This document shows positions 2,749-22,993 of a stretch of 59,865 nt of DNA, piece by piece. This DNA comes from a virus. The notes under the pieces are model-generated. The model saw only the letters and a program-made list of their open reading frames with translations. It was not told the origin of the DNA and made no database searches. Numbering within the stretch: the first letter of the stretch is position 1; every line of letters starts with the position of its first letter. The stretch is from positions 1 through 59,865 of IMG/VR virus record IMGVR_UViG_3300034196_000123. The stretch is one strand, 5' to 3'. Both the position numbers and the translations under genes were made by a program.

Positions 2749-2786
2749 TACCCTGTGCCCGGGGTCGGGTCCGTATCACTGCGGAC
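2749..2786 (+). promoter_or_regulatory. Late leader element copy 1 (before portal)
   Basis: TACCCT (2749-2754), six bases, then GGGGTCGGG (2761-2769), followed by a hairpin GTCCG/CGGAC (2769-2773 with 2782-2786). TACCCT is also flanked by an inverted repeat CCGGGC/GCCCGG (2741-2746, 2757-2762). It is one of five copies with identical spacing. Confidence 0.7.
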
Positions 2787-2798
2787 CTGGAGGCAGGC

Positions 2799-5093
2799 GT
2801 GTCGGCATCCGACGCCCCGACCACGGAACTGGGTGCCCTCGGCGGCGACGTCTGGTCGCACTGGCAGGGCGTCTGGGACCCCACCGAGCACGTCCCCGCG
2901 CTCGCCTGGCCGACCAGCACGCTGACCTACGCCAAGATGCGCCGCGACCCCGTGCTGGCCAGCGTGCTCGCGGCGTACGTGACGCCGATCGTCGAGGCCC
3001 GCTGGGCGATCGACCCGCGCGGCGCGTCCGCGAAGATGACCAAGCTGTGCGCTGATTCCCTCGGCCTGCCGATCCTGGGGAAGGACGACAAGCCCGGCCC
3101 GGTCCGCCGCCGCGGCGTCCAGTGGCTCACGTACCTCCGCCTCGCCGTCGCCGGGAAGCTCACCTGGGGGCACATGCCCTTCGAGCCCGTCTACGAGATC
3201 CGGGACGGCGCCGCGGTGCTCGCGTCTCTCGACGAGCGGCTCCCGCCCAGCATCACCGAGATCGAAGTCGACGACGTCGGCCGGCTCTCGGGGATCTGGC
3301 AGAACGTCTCCGCGAAGAACCCCCGCGGCGCCCACATCCCCGCCGACCGGCTGCTGTGGCACGACTACCAGCGGGAAGGCGCGATGTGGCAGGGGAACAG
3401 CCTGCTCCGCCCCGCCTACGCCCCCTGGCTGATCAAGCAGGACATCCTGCGGGTCACCGCCACCAGCCACCGCCGGTGGGGCGCCGGCGTGCCCGTCGCG
3501 AAGCCGCGGCCCGGCACGCAGCCCACCGAGGCGCAGATGCGCTCGGCGCAGGCCATGGCGTCCGCCGCCCGGGCGGGGGAGACCGCCGGTGCCGTCGCGC
3601 CGCCCGACTTCGACCTGGCGATCCTCGGCATCCAGGGCACCATGCCCGACGGGCCCGCGTTCCTGCGGTACCTGGACGAGCAGATGGGCCGGATGGCCTT
3701 GTCGTCCGTCCTCGACCTCGGGTCGACGTCGAACGGGTCCCGCGCGCTCGGCAGCGTGTTCGCCGACCTGCTCACCGGTGCCGTGCGCTCGCTGGCCCGG
3801 GAGACCGCCGAGCTGTCCACCCAGCTGTGCGTCCGCCTGGTCGACTTCAACGCGGGTGAGGACGCGCTGGTCCCCGCTGTCGTCGCCGCCGACGTCGGGA
3901 CGTCACGGCAGCAGATCGCGCAGGTCATCACCGACATGATCAGCAAGGGTGCGATCACCGCGGACGAAGACCTGGAGGCGTGGATCCGGCAGGCGTTCGA
4001 CCTGCCCAAGATGGTCGAGAAGGCCCCCGCGCTCCCCGGGCCGCCGGTACCGCCCAACCCCGCCGACCCCACGGACCCTCCCGACCCGGCCGCCGGCGAC
4101 CCCACCGCGGACCCGACCACCGACCCGGCCGGTACGCCGCCGCCCGCCAAGGCCCCCGCGAAGACCGCGAAGGCCCCCGCACCGGTCAAGGCCTCGGCCG
4201 CGCCGCGGCGGCCGGCCAGCATCGCGCTCGCCCACGGCCGCGCTCGCCTCGCCACCGCACGCCCCCACGCCGTCCGCGCCGCAGCCGCAGCCCCAGCACC
4301 CCGGGAACTGACCCCCGAAGAGGAAGCCGCCGGCGTCGACCCGCAGGCCCAGAACGACGCCCAGGCCGCCGTCCTCGCCGTCCTGCTCGCCGCATGGCTG
4401 GCCATCCGCGACGACCAGGAAACCAGCCTCATCGCGCAGATCCGCGCCGCCACCACCCTCACCGACCTCACCACCCTCACCATCGACACCCAGGACGCCG
4501 CCGACGTCCTCGGCGCCGCGATGCTCGAGGCCGCCGACCACGGCACGCAGCTGGCGCTCCTGGAGGCCGCGCACCAGGACGTCGACATCACCCCGGCCGT
4601 CGTCGACGTCGACGTCGTGCAGGCCCGCGCTGATGCGCTCGCCGCGGTGATGGGGCAGGGCACCGCGACCGCTGCAGTGCGTGAGGCGGTGCGGCTCGCT
4701 GGGGACGGCGCCGACATGGCGGTCGTCGCGGCCGGGGTGGAGGAGTTCCTCGCCCAGCAGACCGGCGCCGGTGGTGCGGGGGTCGACACGCAGCTGGCGG
4801 GGGCGGTGCACACCGGGATCAGCCTCGGCCGCGCCGCGGTCCTGTCCCGCGCGCCGACCACCGCGGTGTTCTTCGCCTCGGAGATCCTCGACACGGCGAC
4901 GTGCCGGCAGAAGCCGGGGGACCCGATCCCTCGGTGCTGGGAGATCGACGGCCACCAGTACCCGACCTGGGAGGCCGCCGTCGGCGACTACCCGACCGGC
5001 CAGTACTGGGCGTGCCTCGGCCGCCAACGATGCCGCGGCCTCATCTTCGCGTCGTACATGGGCCCGGCCACCGACCCGACCGCGGGAGCGTGA
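2799..5093 (+). CDS. Portal protein fused to MuF-like head morphogenesis domain
   Basis: A 764-residue protein, GTG start behind GGAGG. Residues about 1-400 form a portal domain of the DUF935/SPP1-gp6-like type, which builds the dodecameric DNA channel at the capsid vertex. A Pro/Ala/Thr-rich linker follows (about 405-500). The C-terminal ~70 residues carry the cysteine-rich MuF signature (ILDTATC, CWEIDGHQYP, a YPTGQYWAC-like segment and CRGLIFASY). In many phages portal and MuF minor capsid proteins are separate adjacent genes; here they are one chain. It directly follows leader element 1 and is coupled to the protease gene. Confidence 0.9.
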   Translation: MSASDAPTTELGALGGDVWSHWQGVWDPTEHVPALAWPTSTLTYAKMRRDPVLASVLAAYVTPIVEARWAIDPRGASAKMTKLCADSLGLPILGKDDKPGPVRRRGVQWLTYLRLAVAGKLTWGHMPFEPVYEIRDGAAVLASLDERLPPSITEIEVDDVGRLSGIWQNVSAKNPRGAHIPADRLLWHDYQREGAMWQGNSLLRPAYAPWLIKQDILRVTATSHRRWGAGVPVAKPRPGTQPTEAQMRSAQAMASAARAGETAGAVAPPDFDLAILGIQGTMPDGPAFLRYLDEQMGRMALSSVLDLGSTSNGSRALGSVFADLLTGAVRSLARETAELSTQLCVRLVDFNAGEDALVPAVVAADVGTSRQQIAQVITDMISKGAITADEDLEAWIRQAFDLPKMVEKAPALPGPPVPPNPADPTDPPDPAAGDPTADPTTDPAGTPPPAKAPAKTAKAPAPVKASAAPRRPASIALAHGRARLATARPHAVRAAAAAPAPRELTPEEEAAGVDPQAQNDAQAAVLAVLLAAWLAIRDDQETSLIAQIRAATTLTDLTTLTIDTQDAADVLGAAMLEAADHGTQLALLEAAHQDVDITPAVVDVDVVQARADALAAVMGQGTATAAVREAVRLAGDGADMAVVAAGVEEFLAQQTGAGGAGVDTQLAGAVHTGISLGRAAVLSRAPTTAVFFASEILDTATCRQKPGDPIPRCWEIDGHQYPTWEAAVGDYPTGQYWACLGRQRCRGLIFASYMGPATDPTAGA

Positions 5094-5095
5094 GC

Positions 5096-6556
5096 ATGAG
5101 CGCACTGGTCACCATCGAGGCGGTGCCGATCGCGAAGGTCGGGACGTGGCGGGCCTCCACCGGCGAGGTGGAGCTGACCACGGCCCACTTCGAGGACGCC
5201 GTCCGGGCCCAGCACGACCCGGTGTTCCGGTGGGGCGTCATCAAGCTCGGCCACGACGACCCTCGCTTCAACGGCCCGGACGGCGACGGGGAGCCGGCGG
5301 TCGGCCAGGTCGTGAACCTGCGGGTCACCCCGGACGGGCAGACGCTGCTCGCCGACCTCGTGGGTGTCCCCGCCTGGCTCGCCACGATCATGGCGTCCGC
5401 GTACCCGTCCCGGTCGATGGAGGCCGATCTCGGCGTCCAGACCACCAGCGGCGCCACCTACTCGATGGTCGTGACCGGCCTCGCGCTGCTTGGTGTCGCC
5501 CGGCCCGCGATCGAGTCCCTCGGCGACATCGCCCAGCTGTACCAGGTCCCCACGGACGTCGGGTCCTGGACGTCGGCCGCCACGGTGGCGGCCTCTCTCC
5601 CGATGGAGGTCACCGTGCCGCAGCGCCGGCTCGGGCAGGTCGTCCTGTCCGCGAGCATCGACGAGCTGGTCACCGCGGCCGAGTCGTGGGCCCGCGACCA
5701 GCCCACCCTCGGTGACGCCTACATCCGCGACGTCTACACCGACTATCTGGTGATGTCAGTGTGGCTAGCGGGCGGCGAGAACCGCCTCTACCGCGTCGAC
5801 TGGTCCGAGAGCACCGACGGAACCTTCGCGTTCGGCACGCCGGTGCGCGTTCGGCAGACGTACGAGGCGATCCCGGAGGCCACCACGAGCGTCGCCGCGT
5901 CCGCAGCCATGGGCCTGCTCGCTTGCGACGTTATGGCCCGTCGCTACCACGATGAGCGGTCCGAGGCGGTACTCTCGCGGCGGGGTCGGGATGTGACCAC
6001 CACCGGTGCACATCCTGAGGAGACGCACGTGCCACTTCCGTCCGCCATCGCGGCGGCCCTGGGGTTGGCGGACGACGTGGACGACGCGACGGCCCTGGCG
6101 GCCATCGAGGCGCTGCGAACCGCACCCACGCCGCCCACCGAGCCGGAGGGCGGCACGCCGCCCGCCCCGACCATCCAGACCACGCCGGCCCCCGTCGCCG
6201 ACGTCCAGGCCCTCGTGCAGCAGCAGGTCGCCGCCGCGCTCGGCCCGGTCATGGCGACCGTCCGGGAGCAGTCCACCGAGCTGGCCACCCTCCGTCAGGA
6301 GCGCGCCACCTCCACCCGGGACACGGTCATCCAGGCCGCCCTCAACCGTGGCGCCATCGCCCCGGCCGCAGCCGAGACGTGGCGCAAGCGGTACGACGAG
6401 CACCCGGGCATCACCACCGAGCTGCTCGCCGAGAAGGCCGACGGCGAGGCGGTCCCGCTGCGCGCGTCCGGGCACCTCGGTGAGATCCCCGACTCCACGG
6501 TCGACGCCGAGTGGGCGAAGGTCGCGGCGTCGCTGGGGGTGATCCAGGGTGGCTGA
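5096..6556 (+). CDS. Capsid maturation protease with C-terminal scaffold
   Basis: A 486-residue protein; ATG 5096 has GGGAG seven bases upstream, and an alternative GTG at 5090 overlaps the portal stop. Residues about 1-150 resemble the Mu-I-like prohead protease (VIKLGHDDPRF, then GEPAVGQVVNL, VPAWLATIMASAYPSRS). A middle segment of unknown fold follows. The C-terminal ~175 residues are helical, Ala/Glu/Gln-rich and scaffold-like. An internal in-frame start with its own leader element (5970-6015) would produce that scaffold alone, as with lambda C/Nu3. Confidence 0.8.
   Translation: MSALVTIEAVPIAKVGTWRASTGEVELTTAHFEDAVRAQHDPVFRWGVIKLGHDDPRFNGPDGDGEPAVGQVVNLRVTPDGQTLLADLVGVPAWLATIMASAYPSRSMEADLGVQTTSGATYSMVVTGLALLGVARPAIESLGDIAQLYQVPTDVGSWTSAATVAASLPMEVTVPQRRLGQVVLSASIDELVTAAESWARDQPTLGDAYIRDVYTDYLVMSVWLAGGENRLYRVDWSESTDGTFAFGTPVRVRQTYEAIPEATTSVAASAAMGLLACDVMARRYHDERSEAVLSRRGRDVTTTGAHPEETHVPLPSAIAAALGLADDVDDATALAAIEALRTAPTPPTEPEGGTPPAPTIQTTPAPVADVQALVQQQVAAALGPVMATVREQSTELATLRQERATSTRDTVIQAALNRGAIAPAAAETWRKRYDEHPGITTELLAEKADGEAVPLRASGHLGEIPDSTVDAEWAKVAASLGVIQGG
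5970..6015 (+). promoter_or_regulatory. Late leader element copy 2 (inside protease gene)
   Basis: TACTCT (5970-5975), six bases, GGGGTCGGG (5982-5990), then a 7-bp hairpin GGATGTG/CACATCC (5989-5995 with 6009-6015). It lies wholly within the protease coding sequence and ends 14 bases before an in-frame GTG with a good ribosome-binding site. Confidence 0.65.
6030..6556 (+). CDS. Nested scaffold protein (internal start of protease gene)
   Basis: A GTG at 6030, preceded by TGAGGAG (6015-6021), would give a 175-residue protein identical to the C-terminus of the protease. The sequence is helical and Ala/Gln/Glu-rich (for example VQALVQQQVAAALGPVMATV), typical of a scaffold that organises capsomers and is then removed. 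The dedicated leader element and ribosome-binding site argue that it is made separately and in excess, as in lambda Nu3. It ends four codons into the decoration gene region. Confidence 0.6.
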
Positions 6557-6944
6557 CTACGCACCGATTCTGGAGGGCACCCCGCCGGCGACGTACACCG
6601 TCGGCGCGACCGCCGTCACCGGCGGCGACGCCGTCTACCTGTCGGCCACCGCGGGCAGCAACAGCAACGGCACCGTGCTGACGACCACCGCGGCGACCGT
6701 CGCGTTCGTCGGGGTCGCAGCCCATGACGCCGCGATCGGCGCCCGCGTGACCGTCCTGTCGGGCGGCATCCAGGAGATGACCTCCGGCGGCTCGATCACG
6801 TTCGGGACCAGCGTGAAGACCGGCGCCAGCGGCCGGGTCGTCACGTGGGTGTCCGGCACCGACGCCGCGGACCTGGCCATCGGACTCGCTCTCACGGGCA
6901 CGGGTGCCGCCGGCAACCCCGTCCGCGTGAAGCTCTACCGCTGA
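6549..6944 (+). CDS. Head decoration-like protein (DUF2190-type)
   Basis: A 131-residue GTG-start protein overlapping the protease stop by 8 bases. The sequence is Gly/Thr/Ala-rich, beta-type (TYTVGATAVTGGDAVYLS, VRVKLYR), like the small trimeric capsid decoration proteins encoded just before the major capsid gene in many siphophages. Position between protease/scaffold and capsid supports a head role. DUF2190-like assignment is by pattern only. Confidence 0.65.
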   Translation: MADYAPILEGTPPATYTVGATAVTGGDAVYLSATAGSNSNGTVLTTTAATVAFVGVAAHDAAIGARVTVLSGGIQEMTSGGSITFGTSVKTGASGRVVTWVSGTDAADLAIGLALTGTGAAGNPVRVKLYR

Positions 6945-6960
6945 AAGGGCGGGCTGACAC

Positions 6961-7884
6961 ATGCCGTACATCTACCCGCCCGCCCAGGGCACCCTCACCG
7001 GCGATGTCTACTCCGCCAGCCGGTTCCTGGAGCAGCCCACGCTCGTGCAGCGTGCGCTCCGCTCGATGACCGCGCAGCGGTTCATCGCCGACGCATTGCT
7101 CGCCGGCCGCGTCCAGGCCAGCGGCGGCGGCATCCTCTACGAGGTCTCCGAGGGCCTCTACACCTCCCGCACGCCGGAGGGTGTGGCCCCGGGGTCGAAG
7201 TACCCGCAGGCCACCGCCACCACCGGTGCGGCCGCGCTCGCGGCGGTCACCAAGTGGGGCCAGGCGATCCCGATCACCGACGAAGAGATCTCCCGGGCGC
7301 CGGGGATCGACACGGCCCGCAAGGCGCTGCTGAAGCTGGTCAACCAGCTCGTCAAGACCATCGACGGGATCTTCCTCGCGGCGCTCGGCGCGGCGATCAC
7401 GCAGACCCAGGCGGTGAACGGCACCGCGTGGAACGGCGCGACCCCGCAGATGCTGCTCGACATCAACCTGGCCAAGGCGAAGATCATCACGCTGAACCAG
7501 GGGTACGACCCCGACACGATCGTCCTCGACGACATCCGGTACGCCGAGGTCACATCCAACAAGGACCTGCTGGCCGGCCTGACGCGCGAGCAGATGTCCG
7601 CACCGACCGCCTCCGGAGAGATCGTGAAGCTCTCGGCGTGCCGGATCCTGCCGACCCCGAACCTCCCCGCCGGGGTCAACGCCATGGTCGTCGACTCCCA
7701 GATGCTCGGCTCGGTCGGCTACGAACGGATCCAGAGCCCCGGCTACCAGGGCGACCCGGCGAACGGGGTCGAGTCGAAGCTCATCCGCAAGGACGACGAG
7801 GACCGGTGGCTCATCCAGGGCCGTCGTCCCGTCGTGCCCGTCGTCCAGGAGCCGGGCGCCGGCTGCGTCATCACCGGCACCTGA
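6961..7884 (+). CDS. Major capsid protein (HK97-fold)
   Basis: A 307-residue protein, the usual size for an HK97-fold capsid subunit without a large N-terminal delta domain. It starts MPYIYPPAQGTLTGDVYSAS and carries typical capsid segments (ATKWGQAIPITDEEIS-like stretch at about 95-112, NAMVVDSQMLGSVGYERI near 240-258). It follows the protease, scaffold and decoration genes, which is the canonical order. A strong terminator-like hairpin sits directly downstream and could set its high transcript level. Confidence 0.88.
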   Translation: MPYIYPPAQGTLTGDVYSASRFLEQPTLVQRALRSMTAQRFIADALLAGRVQASGGGILYEVSEGLYTSRTPEGVAPGSKYPQATATTGAAALAAVTKWGQAIPITDEEISRAPGIDTARKALLKLVNQLVKTIDGIFLAALGAAITQTQAVNGTAWNGATPQMLLDINLAKAKIITLNQGYDPDTIVLDDIRYAEVTSNKDLLAGLTREQMSAPTASGEIVKLSACRILPTPNLPAGVNAMVVDSQMLGSVGYERIQSPGYQGDPANGVESKLIRKDDEDRWLIQGRRPVVPVVQEPGAGCVITGT

Positions 7885-7892
7885 CCGAGCCC

Positions 7893-7929
7893 GGGTGCGG
7901 GTCCCCTCCCCGAGCGGGGACCCGCACCC
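7893..7929 (+). terminator. Strong hairpin after capsid gene
   Basis: A 14-bp perfect stem (7893-7906 with 7916-7929) and 9-nt loop, nine bases after the capsid stop. There is no T-tract, as is usual in G+C-rich actinobacteria. It may attenuate transcription into the downstream genes or protect the capsid mRNA. Confidence 0.7.
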
Positions 7930-7967
7930 GCCCACCCGGCACCGACACGACCCGAGACGAGGACCCG

Positions 7968-8279
7968 ATGGCAGCAGGAGCACGTACCGCGGCCGCCGCG
8001 ACGCCGCCGGCGCCGCCCGCAGACGACCAGAACCCGCCGGCCCCGACCGACGAGCAGGCCGCCCCCGAGGCACCCGAGGCGGTCGAGGCCCCGACCCACT
8101 TCAACGCCTACCCCGCCCGGATCGCGGTCACGCTCGCACTGAAGGACGGCGAGGACCCGAACGCGGAGCGGACCCGCGTCATCGTCCCGCCCGGCCGCGA
8201 CATCCCCGCGGACGTCGACCCGGTGGCGCTGGCCGACCTGATCGCCATCGGCTACGCGAAGGCCAAGGCGGCCTCCTGA
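7968..8279 (+). CDS. Hypothetical structural-region protein
   Basis: A 103-residue protein with an ATG behind GACGAGGA. The first 45 residues are Ala/Pro-rich and disordered. The folded part (HFNAYPARIAVTLALKDG, RVIVPPGRDIPADVDPVALA) resembles a small beta/alpha domain found next to capsid genes in actinophages, with no assigned role. It lies between capsid and connector genes. Confidence 0.6.
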   Translation: MAAGARTAAAATPPAPPADDQNPPAPTDEQAAPEAPEAVEAPTHFNAYPARIAVTLALKDGEDPNAERTRVIVPPGRDIPADVDPVALADLIAIGYAKAKAAS

Positions 8280-8281
8280 TC

Positions 8282-8354
8282 GTCCCGCCCGGGGGTCTGT
8301 GACGCGACCCCGACCCCAAGTCCTGGACTTGCCGAGCTGGTCCCCGGGCGGGAC
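8282..8354. other. Highly structured 110-bp intergenic segment
   Basis: A 13-bp perfect inverted repeat, GTCCCGCCCGGGG (8282-8294) with CCCCGGGCGGGAC (8342-8354), encloses a second small hairpin CAAGTC/GACTTG (8317-8331) and a competing GGGGTC/GACCCC pair. No gene fits here. It separates the genes ending at 8279 and starting at 8394 and may be a processing or attenuation structure. Confidence 0.55.
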
Positions 8355-8393
8355 CCCACCACCATCCACCTCGATCCCGCAGAGGGAGACCCG

Positions 8394-8747
8394 GTGTACC
8401 TGTTCCTCGGCACACGACGTGCCTTCAACGACCCCTCCCAGCACGAGGACGGCACCGCGAAGACCCTCGACGAGCGGGACATCCTCGACATGAAGAGCCG
8501 CGTCGAGATCACGTTCCCGGCCGGAGTCCCGTTCTCCGAGGCGTTCGTGACCGTGACGTCACCGACCGGGGTGTGGGCGAACCAGTCCCCGGACGCCGCG
8601 CCCGCCTGGGTGGCGTCCGACGACGAGGACCTGGCCCGCCTGGTGTCCCGCCACTTCGGCGGCATCCAGGTCCGGGACCCGCTGCCCGCGGGGGAGCGGG
8701 ACGAGCACGCCGGCCGCGCCCACCACTTCGAGAGCCTGGAGGGCTGA
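8394..8747 (+). CDS. Hypothetical protein, head-tail region
   Basis: A 117-residue protein, GTG start after AGGGAGA. It begins MYLFLGTRRAFNDPS and is acidic, with an alternating strand pattern (RVEITFPAGVPFSEAFVTVTS). No family recognised. Its position between capsid and fibre genes suggests a virion or assembly role, which is inference from context. Confidence 0.6.
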   Translation: MYLFLGTRRAFNDPSQHEDGTAKTLDERDILDMKSRVEITFPAGVPFSEAFVTVTSPTGVWANQSPDAAPAWVASDDEDLARLVSRHFGGIQVRDPLPAGERDEHAGRAHHFESLEG

Positions 8748-8750
8748 GCC

Positions 8751-9140
8751 GTGAAGACGTCGGGCGGGATCGACTTCGTCAGCGCGCAGGTGTCCGGTGC
8801 CGGTGGCACCGCGACGGCCGCGTACATGGGCCTCACGGCGAACTCGGCGGCGCCGGCCGCCGGCGACACGACCCTCGCCGGAGAGATCGCCACCGCGGGT
8901 GGTGGGCTGATCCGGGCGCTCGCCACCTACGCCCACACCGCGGGTACCGCGACCTACACGCTGTCGAAGACGTTCACCGCGAACGGGAACGACAGCTTGC
9001 CGGTGACGATCGCGAAGCAGGGCATCTTCACCGCCGTCACGGTCGGCACGCTGGTCTACGAGACCCTGCTCTCCGCCACGGCCACCCTGACCGCCGTCGG
9101 TGACGCGATCACGGTCACCGACACCGTCACGATCTCCTGA
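8751..9140 (+). CDS. Putative structural protein, beta-rich
   Basis: A 129-residue GTG-start protein four bases after the previous stop. It is Thr/Ala/Gly-rich with predicted strands (TATYTLSKTFTANGN, LTAVGDAITVTDTVTIS). The pattern YMGLTANSAAPAAGDTTLAGEIA recurs in uncharacterised actinophage virion proteins near the capsid gene. No enzymatic motif is seen. Likely capsid- or fibre-associated. Confidence 0.6.
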   Translation: MKTSGGIDFVSAQVSGAGGTATAAYMGLTANSAAPAAGDTTLAGEIATAGGGLIRALATYAHTAGTATYTLSKTFTANGNDSLPVTIAKQGIFTAVTVGTLVYETLLSATATLTAVGDAITVTDTVTIS

Positions 9141-9151
9141 GGGCGGCGGTC

Positions 9152-9322
9152 ATGGAGGAGATCCTCGCGGCGCTCGCCGAGGTCGGGCGGCGCCTGGACG
9201 AGCAGTTCGCCCAGAGCAACCCGGATCGTCTCGCGCAGACGACCGCGCACCTGGCGACGGTCCGGATGTGCGTCGAGGCGCTGTTCACCGAGACCCCGTA
9301 CCGCCCCGACGAGGAGGGCTGA
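9152..9322 (+). CDS. Small helical hypothetical protein
   Basis: A 56-residue protein (MEEILAALAEVGRRLDEQFA...), mainly one or two amphipathic helices. It starts at ATG 9152 and overlaps the next gene in a TGATG arrangement. It could be a short assembly or trimerisation partner of the following virion gene, but nothing in the sequence proves this. Confidence 0.6.
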   Translation: MEEILAALAEVGRRLDEQFAQSNPDRLAQTTAHLATVRMCVEALFTETPYRPDEEG

Positions 9323-9837
9323 TGTCGCGCTTCACCGCGGCGGTCGAGTCGCAGGCCGCCCAGCTGGCCGGGGCGCCGTCGGGCACCACGTTCAACGGCT
9401 ACTTCGCGGCCCTCGTCGCCGGTGCTGCCGCCGGGTACGAGATTCGCCGGATCCTGCTCGGCGTGCGGGCCGGTGCGACCGTGCCGACGTCGCAGCAGAT
9501 GACGGTCGCCCTGTATCGACAGACCGTCCGGGTAGCTGGCACCGGGTTCACCACGGTCGCTGGGCAGAACCTGGTGCCCCGCAACGCTGCCACGGCCATC
9601 ACCGGGCTGGACGTCACCACGGCGACTGCCGCGGGGACGACGGGCCCGACGATCGGCAGCAACCCGTTGTTCAGGTTCAGCTTCAACACGCAGGCCGGCC
9701 CGATTGACCTCCCGACGGACCTGATGGAAGAGATCACCTGCGATCAGGGGACGGCCAACGGCCTGGCGTTCGTCAACATCGGCAACGCGCTCCCGCCCTC
9801 GCACCTGTTCACCCTCTCCGCGGAGTGGGAGGAGTAG
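9322..9837 (+). CDS. Putative virion protein
   Basis: A 171-residue protein, ATG coupled to the upstream stop. The sequence is Thr/Ala/Gly-rich, beta-type, starting MSRFTAAVESQAAQLAG, with one Cys near residue 141. The style matches head or fibre-associated proteins, not enzymes. It directly precedes the large SGNH/repeat fibre and may be its attachment partner (inference). Confidence 0.55.
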   Translation: MSRFTAAVESQAAQLAGAPSGTTFNGYFAALVAGAAAGYEIRRILLGVRAGATVPTSQQMTVALYRQTVRVAGTGFTTVAGQNLVPRNAATAITGLDVTTATAAGTTGPTIGSNPLFRFSFNTQAGPIDLPTDLMEEITCDQGTANGLAFVNIGNALPPSHLFTLSAEWEE

Positions 9838-9878
9838 ACCGCCCCCCGTTCCAGCGACCGTCGGGAGGGTGAAGGCTC

Positions 9879-14063: not shown

Positions 14064-14091
14064 CCACCGGTACCCTGCCGGTGGGGTCGGG
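14064..14091 (+). promoter_or_regulatory. Late leader element copy 3
   Basis: TACCCT (14071-14076), six bases, GGGGTCGGG (14083-14091). Here TACCCTG is the loop of a perfect 7-bp inverted repeat CCACCGG/CCGGTGG (14064-14070, 14078-14084). It stands 11 bases after the connector stop and before the gene at 14,123. Confidence 0.65.
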
Positions 14092-14122
14092 AGCAGCCAC
14101 GCGCGCACCCGAGGAGACCATC

Positions 14123-14419: not shown

Positions 14420-14421
14420 CC

Positions 14422-14799: not shown

Positions 14800-15251
14800 T
14801 GGTGCAGCAGATCGTGTACTGCGACGGTGCCGGTGCGGCCGCGGTGTGGGTCAACGACGTCTCCGGGATCACCGGTGCAGGCGGGCCCCTGGAGAATGGC
14901 GTGAGCCTGCTGGTCGACGGGCCGCGCTCGCCCGGGCAGGGCGCCATCGCGACCGTGGAAGAGCTGGCGGGCACCACCGCGGACGACGCGATGTGCAGCT
15001 GCAGGCTGTCGTTCAAGGTGTGGGCGGTCGGGCGGGGCGGGGGCAGGGAGAAGGCGAACCGCGCCGCCCGGGCCCTCGCCGGCGCGCTCGCCGACCAGCT
15101 GAAGGGCAACCCAGTCACGGTCACAACGAAGGCGGGGGAGCGGGTCACGATCCTCGCCGCGTCTGACCTGGCGGGCCCGTCGCTGACCGGGGACGTCGGT
15201 GGGCAGTCGCAGTACCGGGTCGACGCCACACTGAGCCTGCAGCCCGCCTGA
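14796..15251 (+). CDS. Tail terminator protein
   Basis: A 151-residue protein overlapping the previous gene by four bases (start GTG 14796 or ATG 14799). Its length, mixed alpha/beta composition and place immediately before the major tail protein fit the tail terminator (lambda gpU-like) that caps the tail tube. No diagnostic motif is visible. Confidence 0.5.
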   Translation: MMVQQIVYCDGAGAAAVWVNDVSGITGAGGPLENGVSLLVDGPRSPGQGAIATVEELAGTTADDAMCSCRLSFKVWAVGRGGGREKANRAARALAGALADQLKGNPVTVTTKAGERVTILAASDLAGPSLTGDVGGQSQYRVDATLSLQPA

Positions 15252-15267
15252 CGGGCCGTCCGGGCGG

Positions 15268-15304
15268 TAACCTGTGCGCGGGGTTGGGACTTCGTAGCGA
15301 AGTC
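15268..15304 (+). promoter_or_regulatory. Late leader element copy 4 (before major tail gene)
   Basis: TAACCT (15268-15273), six bases, GGGGTTGGG (15280-15288), then a perfect 7-bp, 3-nt-loop hairpin GACTTCG/CGAAGTC (15288-15294, 15298-15304). A 56-base leader separates the hairpin from the ATG of the major tail gene. Confidence 0.7.
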
Positions 15305-15360
15305 GCCGCAGCGGAACTCGAGTTGCTCGGGGGAGGCGCGGCCCCAGCCCTGGAGGCTCG

Positions 15361-15954
15361 ATGCCTGCCATCGCAGTGCCCCGCGACTCGATCCGGATCG
15401 GCGCCGGCTACCTCTACAAGGCGATCATCGGGTCCACGTTGCCCAGCAACACGGTGTCCGGTGGGGTGTTCACTGACCCGTGGCCCGCCGCCTTCATCCC
15501 GCTGGGGGTGACCAAGGCTGGGCACGAGCTCAGCTTGAAGACCGACTTCTCGCCGGTCGAGGCCGCGGAGTACCTGGACCCGCTGCTGCTCGCGCCCGAG
15601 AAGTCCGAGAACAAGATCTCGATTGAGATCCTGCAGTTCACCGCGAAGAACTTCTCGCTGACCCTCAACGGCGCCACCCTGACCACCGTCAGCGGCACCG
15701 GCCCGACCCTGCTGACGAAGCTCACGCCGGTCGCGCCCTCGTCGATGATCCCCACGATGTTCGGCTGGGAGTCCGAGGACGCCCGAGAGCGGACGATCAT
15801 CTACCAGGCCAAGCAGACCGGCGAGATCAAGGTCAAGCGCACCAAGGGCGGCGGTGACCCCTCCACCTTGCCGGGCGAGTGGACCATGGAGCGGCCCCCG
15901 ACCGGCGAAACGTGGGAGGGCTGGTACGCCGGCCCGACCGCGCTGGGCCTGTAG
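15361..15954 (+). CDS. Major tail tube protein
   Basis: A 197-residue protein with ATG behind CTGGAGG. It is beta-rich (GHELSLKTDFSPVEAAEYLDP, SENKISIEILQFTAKNFSLTL) and acidic, with the size and pattern of siphovirus tail tube subunits. It follows the tail terminator and precedes the tail chaperones and tape measure. Its own leader element and long leader fit the need for high-level synthesis. Confidence 0.75.
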   Translation: MPAIAVPRDSIRIGAGYLYKAIIGSTLPSNTVSGGVFTDPWPAAFIPLGVTKAGHELSLKTDFSPVEAAEYLDPLLLAPEKSENKISIEILQFTAKNFSLTLNGATLTTVSGTGPTLLTKLTPVAPSSMIPTMFGWESEDARERTIIYQAKQTGEIKVKRTKGGGDPSTLPGEWTMERPPTGETWEGWYAGPTALGL

Positions 15955-16673
15955 TGGCGTCCCTGGGGGAGTTCGGGCGCCTCGTCATCGACGACGCCCC
16001 CGAGCCCATCGAACCGGACACGTTCACGTTCCACGGCCACGAGTTCCTGATCCCCGACTCGCTGAGCATGCTGCCGACGATGCGGTTCGCGTGGCAGCAG
16101 AAGGTCCACACGCAGCGGGAGAAGCAGACCGGCCGGGCCCTGGAGCGCGCGCAGCTGCGCCTCGCCGCCGCGGACGCCCGGGACCGCGCCGCCGCACAGA
16201 AGGCCGTCGAGGACGCCCAGGCGGAGCAGGTGCAGGCGAACCTGGACATGCTCGCCGAGCTGTACTCCTACGTCCGCTCGTCGATGCCCGATGAGGACGA
16301 CTGGGAGACCTTCTACGAGATCGCCGTGTCGGTGCGCGCCGACATGGAGGAGCTGCTGGGGGTGGCCGGGCAGATCCTCTCCACGGTGACCGGCCGCCCT
16401 ACGAGTCGGCCCTCCGAATCATCGGATGGGCCGTCGAGGAGTGGGGCTGGGTCGACGGGCAGCTACGACTCGCCGGCGCCGACCGGTGGGCCGGCGCGGA
16501 CGATGCGGCGGGAGTTGCCGGCACCGCCGTGGGACGACGTCCCGACGCAGCGGGTGATCCGGATCGAGCCGGAACCGGAGTCGGACCTGATGGCGCAGCG
16601 GCGGGAGTACTTCGCCGACCTGGTGTCCGTGGACGAGCTGCTGGACCGGGCGGGCATCCCCTCTGGCGGCTGA
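15954..16673 (+). CDS. Tail assembly chaperone, G-type
   Basis: A 239-residue protein, GTG overlapping the tail protein stop. Residues 1-145 are helical with a long Ala/Arg/Gln helix (LERAQLRLAAADARDRAAAQ) and the actinophage chaperone pattern ILSTVTGRPTSRPSESSDGPS near residue 145. The tail of the frame (about 190-239) is also protein-like (PWDDVPTQRVIRIEPEPE). Tail chaperones bind the tape measure protein before tube polymerisation. A second frame overlaps from about 16,397. Confidence 0.75.
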   Translation: MASLGEFGRLVIDDAPEPIEPDTFTFHGHEFLIPDSLSMLPTMRFAWQQKVHTQREKQTGRALERAQLRLAAADARDRAAAQKAVEDAQAEQVQANLDMLAELYSYVRSSMPDEDDWETFYEIAVSVRADMEELLGVAGQILSTVTGRPTSRPSESSDGPSRSGAGSTGSYDSPAPTGGPARTMRRELPAPPWDDVPTQRVIRIEPEPESDLMAQRREYFADLVSVDELLDRAGIPSGG

Positions 16674-16846
16674 CGCCCGCGCAGGGGGTCAACACGCTCT
16701 ACGCGCTGTGGGCGTCGGTGTCCGACCGGGACGCCTTGGACGAGTACCTCGCGACCGGTGAGGTCCCGCAGGCCTCGACGTCCGCGGCCGGCTCGCCGGC
16801 GGTCGACGACGCCGCGGCGGCCGCGGTCCTGATGGGGAGGCTGTAG
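16397..16846 (+). CDS. Tail assembly chaperone, T-frame (probable -1 frameshift product)
   Basis: In the -1 frame relative to the G gene, translation is open from before 16,397 to TAG 16,844-16,846, ending just before the tape measure start. The frame encodes plausible protein at its start (PYESALRIIGWAVEEWGWVD) and end (PLWRLTPAQGVNTLYALWAS...DALDEYLATG). In most siphophages G and GT are made by programmed slippage. The exact slip site is not obvious; the run around CGGCCGCCCTACG (16,391-16,403) is one candidate. A separate internal start is the alternative. Confidence 0.5.
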   Translation, partial: PYESALRIIGWAVEEWGWVDGQLRLAGADRWAGADDAAGVAGTAVGRRPDAAGDPDRAGTGVGPDGAAAGVLRRPGVRGRAAGPGGHPLWRLTPAQGVNTLYALWASVSDRDALDEYLATGEVPQASTSAAGSPAVDDAAAAAVLMGRL

Positions 16847-19765
16847 GTGGCTGCCAGCCCGCTGGCGCAGGCGATCGTCCGGGTCCGTGGTGACGGGTCG
16901 ATGCTGCGCGGCGACATCTCGAAGTCCGCCGGTGCAGCGGCCCGGCAGGCCGGGGCGGCGGCCGGTAAGGACTTCGGGCGGACGATGTCGGAGTCGGCGC
17001 AGAAGGCCCTGAACGCCCGCAAGGCCAGCGTCGACCTGGAGATCGTCAAGGCGAAGCAGAAGATCGAGGAACTGCGCGGCACCGCCCGGAAGATCGACGA
17101 CGACAAGCACAAGCTGGACCTGGACATCGCCACAGCCCGGGCGCGGATCGACGAGATGTACCGCCGCGGCGGTGGCGTCCTCACCATGAAGGCGCAGGCC
17201 GAGGTCAACCAGGCAGAGGCGAACCTGGCGCGCCTGGAACGGGCCAGGGAACGCCTGGAGGACGGCACCATCCTGCTGCGGTCGCAGGCCGAGACCGCGG
17301 CCACGCAGGCGCGCCTGGACGCCCTGGAGGCGAAGCGCCGGGACCTCGAGCGGCCGGTGACGATCCCGGTCGGTGCGAACACGGCGGGCGCGGACCGCAA
17401 CCTCGACGAGACGGACCGGAAGAAGCGGTCCGTCGGGCAGTCACAGACCTTCCGGATCGAAGCTGATCCAGGGCCGTCGATCGGGCGGCTCACCGCCCTG
17501 ATGTCCATCATCGCCGTGCTGATCCCCCTGGCGCTCGCCGCGGCCGGTGCGGTCGCGGGGATCGGTGCCGTTGGCCTCGTCGGGTTCGCGGCGACCGCGG
17601 CCGGCTTCAACGGCGTCGGCGACGCCGTGTCGGCCATGGGAAAGAAGGCCGCCGCCGGCGGGTCGCAGGTCAAGGTGTCGGCGTCCGCGGTGCGGGCCGC
17701 GGCTGCGTCCGTGAAGACGGCCCAGCAGGACTACGCCCACGCCCTCCAAGACGTCGCCGTCGCGGCCAGGGAGGCCGCCAGATCGCAGCTGGACGTCGCG
17801 GCCGCCCAAGCCGACGTGGCTCGGGCGGAGCGCGCCGTGTCGGCCGCGCTCAAGGATCAGGCCAGAGCTACCCGCGATGCCCAGGACGCCCAGGCCGACC
17901 TCAACGCCGCCTACCGCGAGGCCAGCCGGAACCTGCGTGACCTGCAGCTGCAGAGCGAAGACATGGCGCTCGCGCAGGAAGACGCGGCCCTGTCCGTGGC
18001 CGAAGCGCAAGAGCGGTACCAGATCGTCCTGAACGACCCCACGGCCACGGCGAACGAGATCAGAAGAGCTGATCTGTCCGTCCGCATCGCGGAGCAGCGC
18101 ACCAAGAGCGTCGCCGCCCAGGCCGACGACCTGGCCTCGAAGAAGGCCGACGCGGACGCCAAGGGCGTCCAGAACGCCGACGTCGTGGTCGCGGCTCAAC
18201 GGCGCGTCGAAGATTCACAGGCCGCCGTCGAACAAGCGACCCAGCGCGTCGCCGACGCGCAGGACGCCGTCGGACAAGCGATCTTGCGCGTGCAAGATGC
18301 CCAGGACCGCGCCTCCGATGCGGCGATGCGCCTGCAACGCCAGCAGGAGGCGGTGGCCAACAGCCTCGACCGGATCGCCGAGGCGAGGACCAGGCTCGAC
18401 GAGGCCAAGCACCCCGAGCAGTCCAGCAGCGGTGGAGGTGCCGCGGACCCCGTCGCCGAGGCGATGGGCAAGTTGGGGCCGAAGGGCCAAGAGTTCGCGG
18501 CGTTCCTGCGCGGCTTCATCGACGGCCCCCTGAAGGACTTGAGGCTCGCCGGGCAGGAGGCGTTCCTCCCCGAGATCCAGAAGGGGCTTGTCGGGATCAA
18601 GCCGGCGATGAAGGACGCCGAGGGGCCGTTCCGCGACTTCTCGAAGACCTTCGGGCAGGGCATCGCCGGCCTGATGACGGCGTTCGCTCCGCTCGCGAAG
18701 CCGTTCCTCGAGTTCGCGAACCAGGCGTTGAAGGGCCTGGCGCCGTTGCAGCCGGCCCTGAAGCAGTTCGCGGACTCGTTGGGGTGGGTGTTCCGGGAGC
18801 TGGCGAACTCGGGTGTCGCGAAGTCGCTGATGGAGGGCCTGTCGGCCATCATCGCGGCGCTGCTGCCCCTGTTCCCACCGTTGATCGACGCCGCCGTGAA
18901 GATCATGGCGGCGATGGGGCCTGCGCTCGCGCAGGTCGTGGACGCGCTGACGCAGTCGATCATCCTGCTGCTGCCCGAGCTGGTGCAGATGGCGCCGCTG
19001 TTCGCCGACTTCCTGATCAAGCTGATCCCTCTGATCCCGTCGATCTTCCAGCTGGTCGACGCGATCCTGAAGCTGATCATCCAGACGTACCCGATCACCA
19101 CGCTGTTCACCGAGCTGGCCATTCTGATCATCACGAAGGTGATCGGGGCGTTCACGTCGATCGCCGACTACATCCAGCGGACGATCATCCCGGTCTGGAA
19201 CTCGTTCAACTCGGCCGCCGACACCGTCCACAAGGCGATCGTGTCCGGCATCGAGAAGGTCGGGCAGTTCGTCGTCGACCTGCCGAAGAAGGCCGCTGGG
19301 CTGCTCAAGATGTTCGACCCCCTGGCCTCCGGCGCGAAGTCCGCGTTCAACGCGGTCTCGGACGCCTGGAACAGCTCCATCGGGTCGTTCTCGTTCAGCC
19401 TGCCCGGGTGGCTGCCCGGGATCGGCGGATCCAACTTCTCCCTGCCGCGGATGCCGCGTCTGGCCGCCGGTGGCATCGCGACGTCCCCGACGGTCGCGAT
19501 GATCGCCGAGGCGGGGGAGGCCGAGGCGGTGGCGCCGCTCAGCAAGCTGCGCAGCATGCTCGACGCCAGCGTGCGGTTCGCGATGCGCAGCGAAGCCCCG
19601 GCCACCGGCGCGCCGGCCGCCGACACCGGCCGCACGGCCGCGGCGATGGACGAGCAGACCAGCCTGCTGCGCCGCCTCGTCGAGCTCCTGGAGCGGAGCA
19701 CCGACGTCCGGCTCGACGGTCGCGTCGTCGGCGCGATCGATGGCCTCTACGGACGGGGGTACTGA
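16847..19765 (+). CDS. Tape measure protein
   Basis: A 972-residue GTG-start protein. Residues about 35-190 and 275-525 are long Ala/Arg/Asp/Gln coiled-coil stretches; a membrane-active hydrophobic block (LIPLALAAAGAVAGIGAVGL) lies near 225-255 and others at 660-780 (IIAALLPLFPPLIDAAVKIM). The length sets the tail tube length, by the usual ~1.5 A per residue rule roughly 140-150 nm. C-terminal residues carry GGIATSPTVAMIAEAGEAE, a feature common to tape measure proteins. Confidence 0.9.
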   Translation: MAASPLAQAIVRVRGDGSMLRGDISKSAGAAARQAGAAAGKDFGRTMSESAQKALNARKASVDLEIVKAKQKIEELRGTARKIDDDKHKLDLDIATARARIDEMYRRGGGVLTMKAQAEVNQAEANLARLERARERLEDGTILLRSQAETAATQARLDALEAKRRDLERPVTIPVGANTAGADRNLDETDRKKRSVGQSQTFRIEADPGPSIGRLTALMSIIAVLIPLALAAAGAVAGIGAVGLVGFAATAAGFNGVGDAVSAMGKKAAAGGSQVKVSASAVRAAAASVKTAQQDYAHALQDVAVAAREAARSQLDVAAAQADVARAERAVSAALKDQARATRDAQDAQADLNAAYREASRNLRDLQLQSEDMALAQEDAALSVAEAQERYQIVLNDPTATANEIRRADLSVRIAEQRTKSVAAQADDLASKKADADAKGVQNADVVVAAQRRVEDSQAAVEQATQRVADAQDAVGQAILRVQDAQDRASDAAMRLQRQQEAVANSLDRIAEARTRLDEAKHPEQSSSGGGAADPVAEAMGKLGPKGQEFAAFLRGFIDGPLKDLRLAGQEAFLPEIQKGLVGIKPAMKDAEGPFRDFSKTFGQGIAGLMTAFAPLAKPFLEFANQALKGLAPLQPALKQFADSLGWVFRELANSGVAKSLMEGLSAIIAALLPLFPPLIDAAVKIMAAMGPALAQVVDALTQSIILLLPELVQMAPLFADFLIKLIPLIPSIFQLVDAILKLIIQTYPITTLFTELAILIITKVIGAFTSIADYIQRTIIPVWNSFNSAADTVHKAIVSGIEKVGQFVVDLPKKAAGLLKMFDPLASGAKSAFNAVSDAWNSSIGSFSFSLPGWLPGIGGSNFSLPRMPRLAAGGIATSPTVAMIAEAGEAEAVAPLSKLRSMLDASVRFAMRSEAPATGAPAADTGRTAAAMDEQTSLLRRLVELLERSTDVRLDGRVVGAIDGLYGRGY

Positions 19766-19768
19766 CCG

Positions 19769-21208
19769 GTGCCAGCTGTGGTGCAGATCGTGGACGGCGT
19801 CGGCGGGGCGGTGCTGTTGGACCTCAACTCGGGCAGCGTGCTGCTCGGGCAGCGGTCCAACGTCAAGCTCGGCGACGTCGACCTCGGGAAGATCGACCGG
19901 CCGGTGCAGTGGACGTCGCAGACGTCGACCGCCGCGCCGGACGACCTGGTGTCCCGGCAGATCACCGCACCGATCGTCGCGGTGTGCGCCAGTCCGGACG
20001 CCGCCGCGGCGTTCGTCGCCAGCCTGCACCGCCTCGTGCAGTCCCCGTTCGTCCTGAAGATCCAGCGGCATGGGGGGACCGTCCCGGTGTGGCTGCGCTG
20101 CTGGCCCTCCGCCCCCAGGTTCGACACCCAGGTCGCCGGCGCCGGCGTGCCCACGAACGTCGTCATCGGGACCCTGCAGGCCGACACGGAGCCCTACGCC
20201 ATCGGTGCGCGCGTCGACGTCGCCGCCGCCACCGTCACCCAGGACCCCACCTCCGCGGGAGCCTTCACCCTCGACGTCAACGGCGTCACCGGCGACAGCC
20301 TCACGCCCGCGGTGCTGCGGTTCTCCACGGACGTCGTGTCGAACGTGGTGGACCAGATGATGGTCGCGGTGCGGCGCCGCGGGACGCCGTCGGCGATCGC
20401 CACGACCAGCCTCGTCGTGCAGGCGGAGAGCGGATCGAGCGCCGTCATCGCCGGCGGCACACCGGCTCCCACGCTGTCGACGTTCACCGGGGACGCCACG
20501 TTCTCGGGGGCGTCCGGTGGGGGAGGGGTGCGGGCCACGTTCCCGTCGGGGGCGCTGAACGGGAGCCCCGGGTTCGCGGTCACGGTGACGCCGTCGTTGT
20601 CGGGGGTCGAGGCGCCGGGCCAGTACCACGTCCTCGCGCGGGTCCGCCGTTCCGGGGGCGCTGCCGGGCAGCCGCTGCTGCTGTGGACCAGCGTCGGCCC
20701 GGCGGTGCTGAGGGAGTCGTACGTGTCCGGTGGGGCGGACACCCGGGTCGTGGACCTCGGGATCGTGCAGGTCCCGATCGGGCAGCCACCGTTCATGGCC
20801 GCGCCCGAAGGCCCCCGGACCGCGATCAGTGCAGCGATCAAGCTGCAGGTGTACAAGCAGTGGGCCGGCGCTGGGGTCGTGGACGTCGACTGGATCGGGT
20901 TGGTCCCCGCGGACCAGGACTGCGGGATGCTCACCGTCGACTCCCCGGCCCCCGGGACGGGCCTGACGGTCGTCGTGGACGGCTACGACGCGGGCACGCG
21001 CATCTACTCGGCCGACCCGTACGGCGGTGGCAGCCCGGTCGCGCAGGGCGCCACCGCGGTGTCGTGGATCGGCGGGCCGCCCCGGCTGCGGCCGGGCAAC
21101 AACCGGCTGTGGCTGATCACCGGGCTCGGCGCCGGTGTGGTCCGCGCGCCGTCCGTGTCGTTCCCGACCGCGGTGTCGTACTGGCCGCGCTACAGGTGGC
21201 TCGGGTGA
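19769..21208 (+). CDS. Distal tail protein-like minor tail protein
   Basis: A 479-residue GTG-start protein directly after the tape measure. The N-terminal part is beta-rich (VQIVDGVGGAVLLDLNSGSVLL), followed by strand-rich domains with many Val/Thr/Gly. Position and style fit the Dit/minor tail protein that begins the tail tip complex. No enzyme motif seen. Confidence 0.65.
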   Translation: MPAVVQIVDGVGGAVLLDLNSGSVLLGQRSNVKLGDVDLGKIDRPVQWTSQTSTAAPDDLVSRQITAPIVAVCASPDAAAAFVASLHRLVQSPFVLKIQRHGGTVPVWLRCWPSAPRFDTQVAGAGVPTNVVIGTLQADTEPYAIGARVDVAAATVTQDPTSAGAFTLDVNGVTGDSLTPAVLRFSTDVVSNVVDQMMVAVRRRGTPSAIATTSLVVQAESGSSAVIAGGTPAPTLSTFTGDATFSGASGGGGVRATFPSGALNGSPGFAVTVTPSLSGVEAPGQYHVLARVRRSGGAAGQPLLLWTSVGPAVLRESYVSGGADTRVVDLGIVQVPIGQPPFMAAPEGPRTAISAAIKLQVYKQWAGAGVVDVDWIGLVPADQDCGMLTVDSPAPGTGLTVVVDGYDAGTRIYSADPYGGGSPVAQGATAVSWIGGPPRLRPGNNRLWLITGLGAGVVRAPSVSFPTAVSYWPRYRWLG

Positions 21209-22926
21209 CCGCCGTCGCGCCCGGCGGGGCCGGGGCGAACCTGCTGGTCCGGGTGTCGTCAGCGTCCGGGCCGGACGTCGTCACCGTGCCCGCACCGAAC
21301 GATCTGCGGTTCTCCGGGGTGTGGTCCCCTGGCGGTGGGTGGAAGGCGTGCAGTTGCACACTGCAGCTGCCCTGGGGCATCACCCCGGCCGCGCTCGCCC
21401 CCTGGTCGCACGTCGCGGTCATCGACCGCCGATCCGGGCGGACCGTCTGGTACGGCCGGCTGACCGACCCCGGGTTGACGCCGTCCACCTCGGGCACCGG
21501 GTACGCGCTCGCGGCCGAGGGCGGGCAGACCCACGCGGACGGGTGGAAGACGTCGTACATCCTGGTCGACCGTGACCCCGACCATTGGGGTGCGGTGGGC
21601 GACTACCCGGGGTCGCAGCAGTCGAACGAGCAAGGCGCGTTCTCGGTGCACCCCTCCGACTACATGGGGGTCGCGTCAGGGTGGGCGCTGACCGAGTCGA
21701 TCGCCGCGGGCACCGGCGCGAACGGGGGGATCACCAGCTCCTGGCAGTACATCGACGGCAACTTCGAACGGATCATCGGCAGCGCGCTGGTGAACATCAC
21801 CGAACCGTCGATGACCTTCGAGGTGCTGCTGGCCACAGCAACCAGCGGCGGATACCAGGAGATGGTCACCCAGCAGTTCGTCTCCGGCAGCCAATGGAAC
21901 TTCGACGTCTACCGCGGAGTCGGCCTGTGGCCCTCCGGGGACCCGGTCGCAGCCGGCGGGTACCTGCGCATCGGGCACACCTCGGGGACGCTGACGTTCA
22001 CCTCCGCCGTGAAGTCGTACATCGGCAACGTGGTGGTCATCCACCCCCGGTACCGGTGGGACGGCAGCGACGCCGGCGCGTGGGCCAGCCCGGCATTGAC
22101 CACCGCGGGGCTCGTCGAGGACCTGGTGGGCCGCGGGTTCTCCGGGTACGTCGAGTACGACCCCGGCCGGCTCGCCGCCACCGCGACGGACCTGGTGCCG
22201 TCCGCGTCGTGGCTTGAGGGTGTGTCCGCGAGGGAGGTCCTGGACTATGCGACGCAGTGGTCCCCGCACCTGTGGTGGGAGGTCGGTGCACCTGGTCCGA
22301 CGCGGCGGCCGGTGCTGGCGCTGGGGTCGTGGAACGACCCGCCCCGGTACGTGATCGCACCGGGTCAGGGGAAGGTGGAGCTGTCCGGCGGCGCCGGGTC
22401 GATCGCGAACGAGTGCATCGTCTACTACCAGTCCGGGACGTTCGGGAAGTCGGTGATCAAGAGAACCACCCGGGTGGGCGTGAACGTCCAGTTCCTGTCC
22501 GACGCCGGGATCACCCGCAGCATGCAGATCGACATCACCGGTGACGGGATCATGTCGGGCGATGACGCGAACGCCCGCGGGTTCGCGGCGCTCGCGCAGT
22601 CCGCGTTGGGCCGCACCACCGGCAAGGTCACGATCACGGGCCCGATTTTCGACCGGACCGTCGGTCGGATGGTCGAGCCGTGGGAGCTGCGCGGCGGCTG
22701 CACCGCGGTGATCCCTGACGCGCGGACGTCGTACTCGCGCAGCACATCGCTCGCGACCGCGACGGCCGACGACTCCGCGGCGGTGTTCCGCGTGACGGGC
22801 ACCGACTACGACGCCAGCACGAACTCGTGCGCGCTCACCTTGGACGGTGGTGCCCTGAGCCTCATCGGCCGGGTCCGCGACGAGACCACACCGCGCCGCT
22901 ACGAGGTCGGCAACGTGCGCCGCTGA
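21205..22926 (+). CDS. Minor tail protein / tail tip (Tal-like N-terminus)
   Basis: A 573-residue protein; GTG 21205 overlaps the upstream TGA (GTG 21196 is an alternative). The early part (FSGVWSPGGGWKACSCTLQLPWG, VIDRRSGRTVWYGRLTDPGL) resembles minor tail proteins of mycobacteriophage type that contact the hub. It continues with mixed beta domains to NVRR. As the last tail gene before lysis, it is likely part of the host-contacting tip. Confidence 0.65.
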   Translation: MTAVAPGGAGANLLVRVSSASGPDVVTVPAPNDLRFSGVWSPGGGWKACSCTLQLPWGITPAALAPWSHVAVIDRRSGRTVWYGRLTDPGLTPSTSGTGYALAAEGGQTHADGWKTSYILVDRDPDHWGAVGDYPGSQQSNEQGAFSVHPSDYMGVASGWALTESIAAGTGANGGITSSWQYIDGNFERIIGSALVNITEPSMTFEVLLATATSGGYQEMVTQQFVSGSQWNFDVYRGVGLWPSGDPVAAGGYLRIGHTSGTLTFTSAVKSYIGNVVVIHPRYRWDGSDAGAWASPALTTAGLVEDLVGRGFSGYVEYDPGRLAATATDLVPSASWLEGVSAREVLDYATQWSPHLWWEVGAPGPTRRPVLALGSWNDPPRYVIAPGQGKVELSGGAGSIANECIVYYQSGTFGKSVIKRTTRVGVNVQFLSDAGITRSMQIDITGDGIMSGDDANARGFAALAQSALGRTTGKVTITGPIFDRTVGRMVEPWELRGGCTAVIPDARTSYSRSTSLATATADDSAAVFRVTGTDYDASTNSCALTLDGGALSLIGRVRDETTPRRYEVGNVRR

Positions 22927-22942
22927 CCGGACGGCAGACGGG

Positions 22943-22993
22943 TACTCTGCGCGTGGGGTCGGGGCTTCTACTGGCGCAATGCTGGGAGGCCCC
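22943..22993 (+). promoter_or_regulatory. Late leader element copy 5 (before endolysin)
   Basis: TACTCT (22943-22948), six bases, GGGGTCGGG (22955-22963), and a hairpin GGGGCT/GGCCCC (22961-22966 with 22988-22993) whose 3' arm overlaps the GGGAGG ribosome-binding site of the endolysin. The overlap could restrain endolysin translation. Confidence 0.68.

Follow-up and report, generated by a model that had tools for sequence, protein, structure and literature searches.

The element TAMYCT-N6-GGGGTYGGG recurs through the late region of the virus record analyzed here (hereafter the window, which is the whole record of 59,865 bases with 73% GC), and it raises the question of what a hexamer and a G-block held at a set distance could be doing near the starts of structural and lysis genes. 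We read each copy as probably a late promoter of the −10-only, housekeeping-sigma type, followed by a leader that is short and structured (probability about 0.75), and we infer promoter activity, the start site, the sigma factor used and the effect on product amounts. Gene calls in the window were hexamer-based and annotated with PHROGs and Pfam. The genes run from portal (2799) through the Mu-like protease (5090), decoration protein (6549), major capsid (6961), tail genes and tape measure (16847) to the endolysin (22996), followed by a regulator, integrase, repressor, directionality factor and replication genes, with the terminase at the right end; judging by the integrase and repressor, this layout is that of a temperate phage. 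The virus group appears to be little known, with hosts among GC-rich bacteria. Megablast against 50,697 phage records returned no near-identical phage, searches with tail, portal and terminase proteins returned distant isolates only and a tail protein search none, and viral queries with portal alone, terminase and tape measure gave no matches. In a prophage-based host prediction, the capsid protein was not found in the 35 genomes of the order searched. Near the right end of the window (59734–59769), more than 20 consecutive G precede a C-rich stretch; this may have arisen in assembly or may be a genuine feature of the contig end.

By scanning the whole window, exactly five exact copies of the pattern were found, at the coordinates originally noted and all on the + strand, which is the coding strand of the late genes (Table 1). 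No copies were expected by chance (0 in 100 dinucleotide shuffles of the window), the next-best sites in the window were three mismatches off, at chance level, and there were 2 matches in 395 whole genomes of actinobacteria (about 2 Gb, going by the listed sizes); the original observation is confirmed. Given that TANNNT is rare in the 73% GC window (22 on the + and 15 on the − strand), the element accounts for five of the seven + strand boxes of the late region. A general repeat search of the window returned coding repeats only, and neither Rfam families nor tRNAs were found in it. Each copy had been proposed to stand before a late gene, and the portal and endolysin labels stood, but copy 2 lies inside the protease ORF (5090–6556) and is not intergenic. 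The separate small gene at 6549 matched a head decoration (cement) protein in Pfam and is not the scaffold. The major tail protein was placed by synteny and an Ig-domain match, and the small gene after copy 3, labeled neck, which comes after a tail gene, was without a family match.

Table 1. Element copies, leader hairpins and associated genes in the window (positions of the window; +1 sites are predicted).
Feature	Position	Strand	Details
Element copy 1	2749–2769	+	TACCCT-N6-GGGGTCGGG; portal copy; predicted +1 at 2761
Element copy 2	5970–5990	+	TACTCT-N6-GGGGTCGGG; within protease gene; predicted +1 at 5982; position conserved in 7 genomes
Element copy 3	14071–14091	+	TACCCT-N6-GGGGTCGGG; neck-region copy; predicted +1 at 14083; next start ATG 14123
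Element copy 4	15268–15288	+	TAACCT-N6-GGGGTTGGG; major tail protein copy; predicted +1 at 15280
Element copy 5	22943–22963	+	TACTCT-N6-GGGGTCGGG; endolysin copy; predicted +1 at 22955
Hairpin of copy 1	2765–2790	+	Directly before Shine-Dalgarno GGAGG and portal GTG 2799
Hairpin of copy 2	5986–6018	+	UCGGGAUGUG / CACAUCCUGA; then GAGGAG
Hairpin of copy 3	14087–14112	+	UCGGG..CCCGA; then GGAG
Hairpin of copy 4	15288–15304	+	GACUUCG-UAG-CGAAGUC
Hairpin of copy 5	22961–22993	+	3′ arm holds endolysin ribosome-binding site GGGAGG
Portal protein gene	2799–5093	+	phrog_113, 2.7e-52; start GTG 2799
Head maturation protease gene, Mu gpI-like	5090–6556	+	Pfam; carries element copy 2
Putative nested in-frame scaffold gene	6029–6556	+	Starts at GTG; corresponds to the protease C-terminal part, as Mu Z does in I
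Probable major tail protein gene	15361–15954	+	Ig-domain match; synteny
Endolysin gene	22996–23880	+	phrog_1493, 2.4e-20; start GTG 22996

The search of related phages suggested with the original prediction brought the total to 24 copies in seven genomes, 19 of them from six distant relatives, where they occupy matching gene positions (portal, scaffold, neck, major tail protein and endolysin). L006, the nearest contig (capsid 63% identical), was found by a capsid protein search and carries four copies on one strand, at the portal, at the scaffold, one gene ahead of the neck gene, and at the major tail protein; G426, G430, L087, L088 and L093 were found by a DNA pattern scan together with a scan using a capsid profile built from a four-genome capsid alignment. 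The late proteins of these relatives are mostly about 30–60% identical to those of the window. By position, six copies precede the portal (homologues in L006, G426, L087, L088 and L093), seven of seven genomes have the scaffold copy, three copies are at the neck (homologues at G426 16945 and L093 15087; the L006 copy stands one gene earlier), five at the major tail protein (L006 13411, G426 21768, L088 13989 and L093 16181) and two at the endolysin (homologue in the L093 record, the reverse complement of L145, 8131). Several contigs end before the remaining positions; L093 carries copies at all five, and in L088 the neck gene is not preceded by one. The element was missing from other capsid relatives and from two Gordonia phages. 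Most pattern matches in viral contigs were set aside as chance, being single, mostly in lower-GC contigs and with no further copies.

Across the 24 copies, A−11 and T−7 are invariant and T−12 is found in 20, so the hexamer relaxes to TANNNT; the exceptions are CATCAT in three portal copies and GATACT in one lysin copy. Sites +1 to +6 read GGGGTY, and −1 is a pyrimidine, in all 24, and the gap between box and block is six bases in 22 copies and seven in two. Two neck copies have an extra C after GGGGTC, and GGGGTYGAG replaces GGGGTYGGG in the group of L087, L088 and L093. The box tends to be genome-specific, with TACCAT occurring twice in L087 and in two of three L088 copies and TACGAT in three of five L093 copies; G426 has mixed boxes.

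Invariance of A−11 and T−7 is what DNA opening by sigma-70-family factors predicts, and the hexamer conforms to a sigma-A/HrdB-type −10 box (TANNNT with these two bases). Streptomyces promoters have a TANNNT −10 box and start on a purine after a pyrimidine (PMC8780764, PMC6742748), and the sequence fits such a start, about seven bases past the box, in 24/24 copies. As far as sequence goes, box, spacing and −1 pyrimidine therefore agree with the earlier suggestion that transcription likely starts on the first Gs. The element resembles Streptomyces HrdB/SigA promoters in its box and, at the predicted start, in the purine after a pyrimidine and the distance from the box, but it is without their TGAC −35 and has a fixed GGGGTY start, a hairpin leader and reiteration along one phage operon (PMC8780764, PMC6742748). 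The lack of a common −35, remarked on before, was confirmed: with both fixed and sliding spacing tried, the mean match to a TTGAC-like −35 at 15–19 bases was 2.67 versus 2.57 in the background (p 0.41), and a promoter scan found no −35 at the element. CTGA upstream of several copies was considered as a signal and rejected, as it is mostly the stop codon of the preceding gene. Since −10-only promoters of the sigma-A/HrdB class are known, the absent −35 lowers the probability of this class without counting decisively against it. An alternate sigma factor, which had been thought possible, would not be needed, because the hexamer over the 24 copies is the ordinary Streptomyces −10 box TANNNT and no sigma-like gene was found; no sigma factor or known late regulator was detected by Pfam and PHROGs among the genes scanned. 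Counting against the promoter reading are the C at hexamer position 5 and the all-G start, which are atypical of strong sigma-A promoters. The preference of Streptomyces starts for T at +2 counts against it as well (PMC8780764). So do the four boxes that depart from TANNNT, the two 7-base gaps, the poor hairpins of two copies, a folding energy that is barely unusual, and the lack of a neck copy in L088. Promoter escape and a phage late factor reading the tag are both candidates for what keeps the G-tag fixed. Outside the late region, a TACCCT at 49400–49440 with inverted repeats on either side (GTGCGCCGCACAG / CTGTGCGGCGCAC-like), 69 bases before the gene at 49489, is a candidate for another promoter with a dyad.

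Copy 2 lies 47 nt before the in-frame GTG at 6029, with GAGGAG six bases 5′ of this internal start, and Pfam Mu-like_Pro (PF10123) matches the full protease ORF and also its nested part after copy 2. The features of a Mu-type nested scaffold, an in-frame start and a ribosome-binding site within a Mu gpI-like protease gene, are therefore recognizable in the sequence. In lambda, Nu3 in C is also a nested scaffold gene. In Mu, too, the scaffold is produced by initiating in frame within the gene for the protease (Z in I; PMC4378225). Unlike in these systems, the nested start here has, besides a ribosome-binding site, a promoter-like box and a hairpin leader of its own within the coding sequence. 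An in-frame start is found 41–50 nt downstream of the scaffold copy in 7/7 genomes, and in all seven protease genes the box stands in the same phase, with its TA at codon positions 2–3 of a GTA, CTA or TTA codon. Such codons are the rarest, amounting to 0.3% of Val for GTA and 0.5% and 0% of Leu for CTA and TTA in 17 long window genes. The invariant alignment columns across the copy 2 stretch are almost exactly TAC..TC....CGGGGTCG.G, and G426 and G430, whose common capsid region is about 82% identical, agree fully over approximately 70 bases starting at the box but differ ahead of it. Conservation of copy 2 for protein reasons only was rejected because the V/L there is always coded by GTA/CTA/TTA; the constraint on this copy acts below the protein level.

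Counted over non-redundant GC-rich capsid relatives, rightward TANNNT boxes peak (7) where the nested start lies, in the bin 1000–951 bases ahead of the capsid gene, and again (9) near −400, at the decoration gene, with mostly 0–2 per bin elsewhere; some relatives in the nested-start peak are without the G-block, and peptide conservation could account for some of their boxes. In L130, L134, L135, L113 and L049, TATCTT, TACCTT or TACCCT stands without a G-block about 935–1030 bases before the capsid gene and about 40–50 bases before a scaffold-like start codon, and some of these may reflect a conserved YLPA peptide. L099 and L141 (59% GC) have, about 957 bases before the capsid gene and at the nested-scaffold position, a TAATGT box, a perfect GACTCGG/CCGAGTC hairpin and AAGGAAGG, possibly the same module lacking the G-tag. 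The copy within the protease gene apparently serves extra scaffold production.

All five window copies have a hairpin beginning in or right after the G-block, one more than the four originally noticed, the addition being that of copy 3 (TCGGG..CCCGA, +5 to +30), and in most copies of the element the hairpin end adjoins the ribosome-binding site. At 73% GC many sequences fold stably, which makes minimum free energy a weak criterion, and the folding energy was only slightly unusual for such GC-rich DNA; helix length was used instead, measured as uninterrupted helices starting near +5 to +10 against genomic, leader and shuffle nulls. The perfect helix averaged 7.06 in nine copies versus 4.1–4.4 in the nulls, and 6.3 versus 4.3 in 22 copies, both beyond every resample, and the 12 copies from later genomes alone also exceeded the null (p 0.0014). 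No good helix was found in the L093 scaffold and G426 neck copies (weak or absent). Stems of homologous copies differ yet stay paired through compensatory change, as in the major tail hairpins GACUUCG-UAG-CGAAGUC (window), GGGUCCG-UAG-CGGACCC (G426), GGAUCGG-UAG-CCGAUCC (L088) and GGUCCG-ACG-CGGACC (L006). Where block base +8 is A rather than G within a stem, its partner is U rather than C, as in UCGAGG/CCUCGA (L087 scaffold) and UCGAGGGCC/GGUUCUCGA (L088). The helix lengths and the compensated stems thus bear out the earlier proposal that structure and not sequence is conserved. Major tail leaders are longer, about 80–90 nt (window 15268, G426 21768, L088 13989, L093 16181); four of five have a UAG loop on unrelated stems, and those of the window and L006 have a second hairpin after the first. 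In GC-rich RNA, such a hairpin may leave the ribosome-binding site accessible, or it may shield the 5′ end.

The conserved hairpin with its compensated stems, abutting or containing the ribosome-binding site in copies that all stand just before start codons, would also suit a post-transcriptional role, with block and hairpin marking where a long late mRNA, transcribed from elsewhere, is processed or stabilized, and setting the translation of the next gene. We consider this unlikely, as it leaves unexplained the TANNNT at a set gap, the invariance of A−11 and T−7 and the pyrimidine at −1, as well as the boxes at the nested start in relatives without a G-block. A translational role has been proposed for SAS (GGGATAGGAGCCC), a 13-bp sequence present in 11–19 copies in the non-structural half of cluster K mycobacteriophages, about half with inverted repeats upstream that have a consensus per subcluster (PMC3203893). 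SAS/ESAS and the element are alike as short repeats before actinophage start codons with inverted repeats, but the element is at structural and lysis genes, has a −10 box and is followed by a hairpin of free sequence; only one 2-mismatch SAS site was found in the window (chance 1.9), and the sequence, location and anatomy all agree with the earlier statement that the two differ. Far less probable still is an immunity repressor binding site, stoperator-like and near late genes by happenstance. Short asymmetric repeats that all point in the transcription direction of a temperate phage would be expected of such sites, but the element is found only at late gene starts, is followed by a conserved RNA hairpin and a start codon, has a fixed −10-like anatomy, and is absent from the immunity region (31–33 kb), which has GCTAACG repeats of its own. 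The cluster A stoperator is a 13-bp L5-type sequence, GGTGGMTGTCAAG; the window has no exact copy, one 1-mismatch and nine 2-mismatch sites, none at the element. The five GCTAACG repeats (31966–32154) lie between the repressor gene (31470–31910, − strand) and early genes, overlap several TANNNT boxes and are likely immunity operators. Two exact CTACTTGCATAG repeats (27916–27927 and 27962–27973), likely also operators, flank a TACGGT box just upstream of a divergent GntR/UTRA regulator gene (27157–27891, − strand).

A different kind of alternative would add to the promoter reading rather than oppose it, namely that these late promoters need a phage-made activator or sigma-appropriating factor recognizing the box, the GGGGTY tag or both, with the tag read in the DNA or at the nascent RNA 5′ end, like put/nut sites, and the late genes firing together only late. 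GGGGTY is constant in 24/24 copies, with its distance from the box set, and so exceeds the requirements of a sigma; the −35 is absent, the element is in late regions only, and box and block types (GGG versus GAG) tend to go by genome as if tracking a changing recognizer. Nevertheless, G426 has its mixed boxes, Pfam and PHROGs show general HTH proteins only, such as those at 46580–46945 (HTH_58) and 32501–32752 (HTH_17), and the loop and stem sequences are not conserved, which leaves an RNA reader with the first bases only; we regard such a factor as possible though doubtful. Late promoters of the T7 type are reiterated, with a fixed GGGAGA at +1 to +6 and structured leaders, and the element is like them in its several copies through structural genes, its fixed G-rich predicted initial transcribed sequence and its leaders before capsid and tail genes, but its box is a sigma-type −10 and not a T7 promoter. 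Pfam and PHROGs scans of the called genes, covering all but a few short ones, showed no RNA polymerase, and thus no single-subunit enzyme of the T7 kind.

Under the −10-only promoter reading, host RNA polymerase with the principal sigma would open the DNA at the TANNNT box, no −35 being used, and transcription would initiate seven bases beyond the box, at the first G of the block. The transcript would begin with GGGGUY and fold at once into a hairpin from about base 5–10, which in most cases would end right before the ribosome-binding site, the start codon being about 33–51 nt from the first G, or about 80–90 nt for the major tail gene. The copies would act as boosters along the late operon, with the portal at its head and then scaffold, neck, major tail protein and endolysin, and the copy in the protease gene would feed the scaffold together with the decoration protein and major capsid behind it. 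With boosters ahead of the genes in greatest demand, proteins required in high copy number could outnumber others, for example the protease. More tentatively still, GGGGUY tag and hairpin together might form a nascent-RNA or promoter-escape signature read by a phage late factor, in a multi-copy −10-only regulon with recognition downstream of the start instead of at a −35 and with one coding-embedded copy setting the protease:scaffold ratio.

In the open-access literature searched the element was not described, and we file it as a new form of phage late promoter. Few mycobacteriophage late promoters have been characterized, and a review asks for such work since they are very active (PMC9262239). 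The 24 mapped copies provide candidate start sites, each with a base-level prediction, from seven genomes belonging to a phage clade about which little is known. They include a clean case in which a nested scaffold gene has a promoter-like box and a leader to itself within the protease gene; this would account for scaffold being made in large excess over protease. If a phage factor does read the G-tag, late genes would be activated here in a novel manner.
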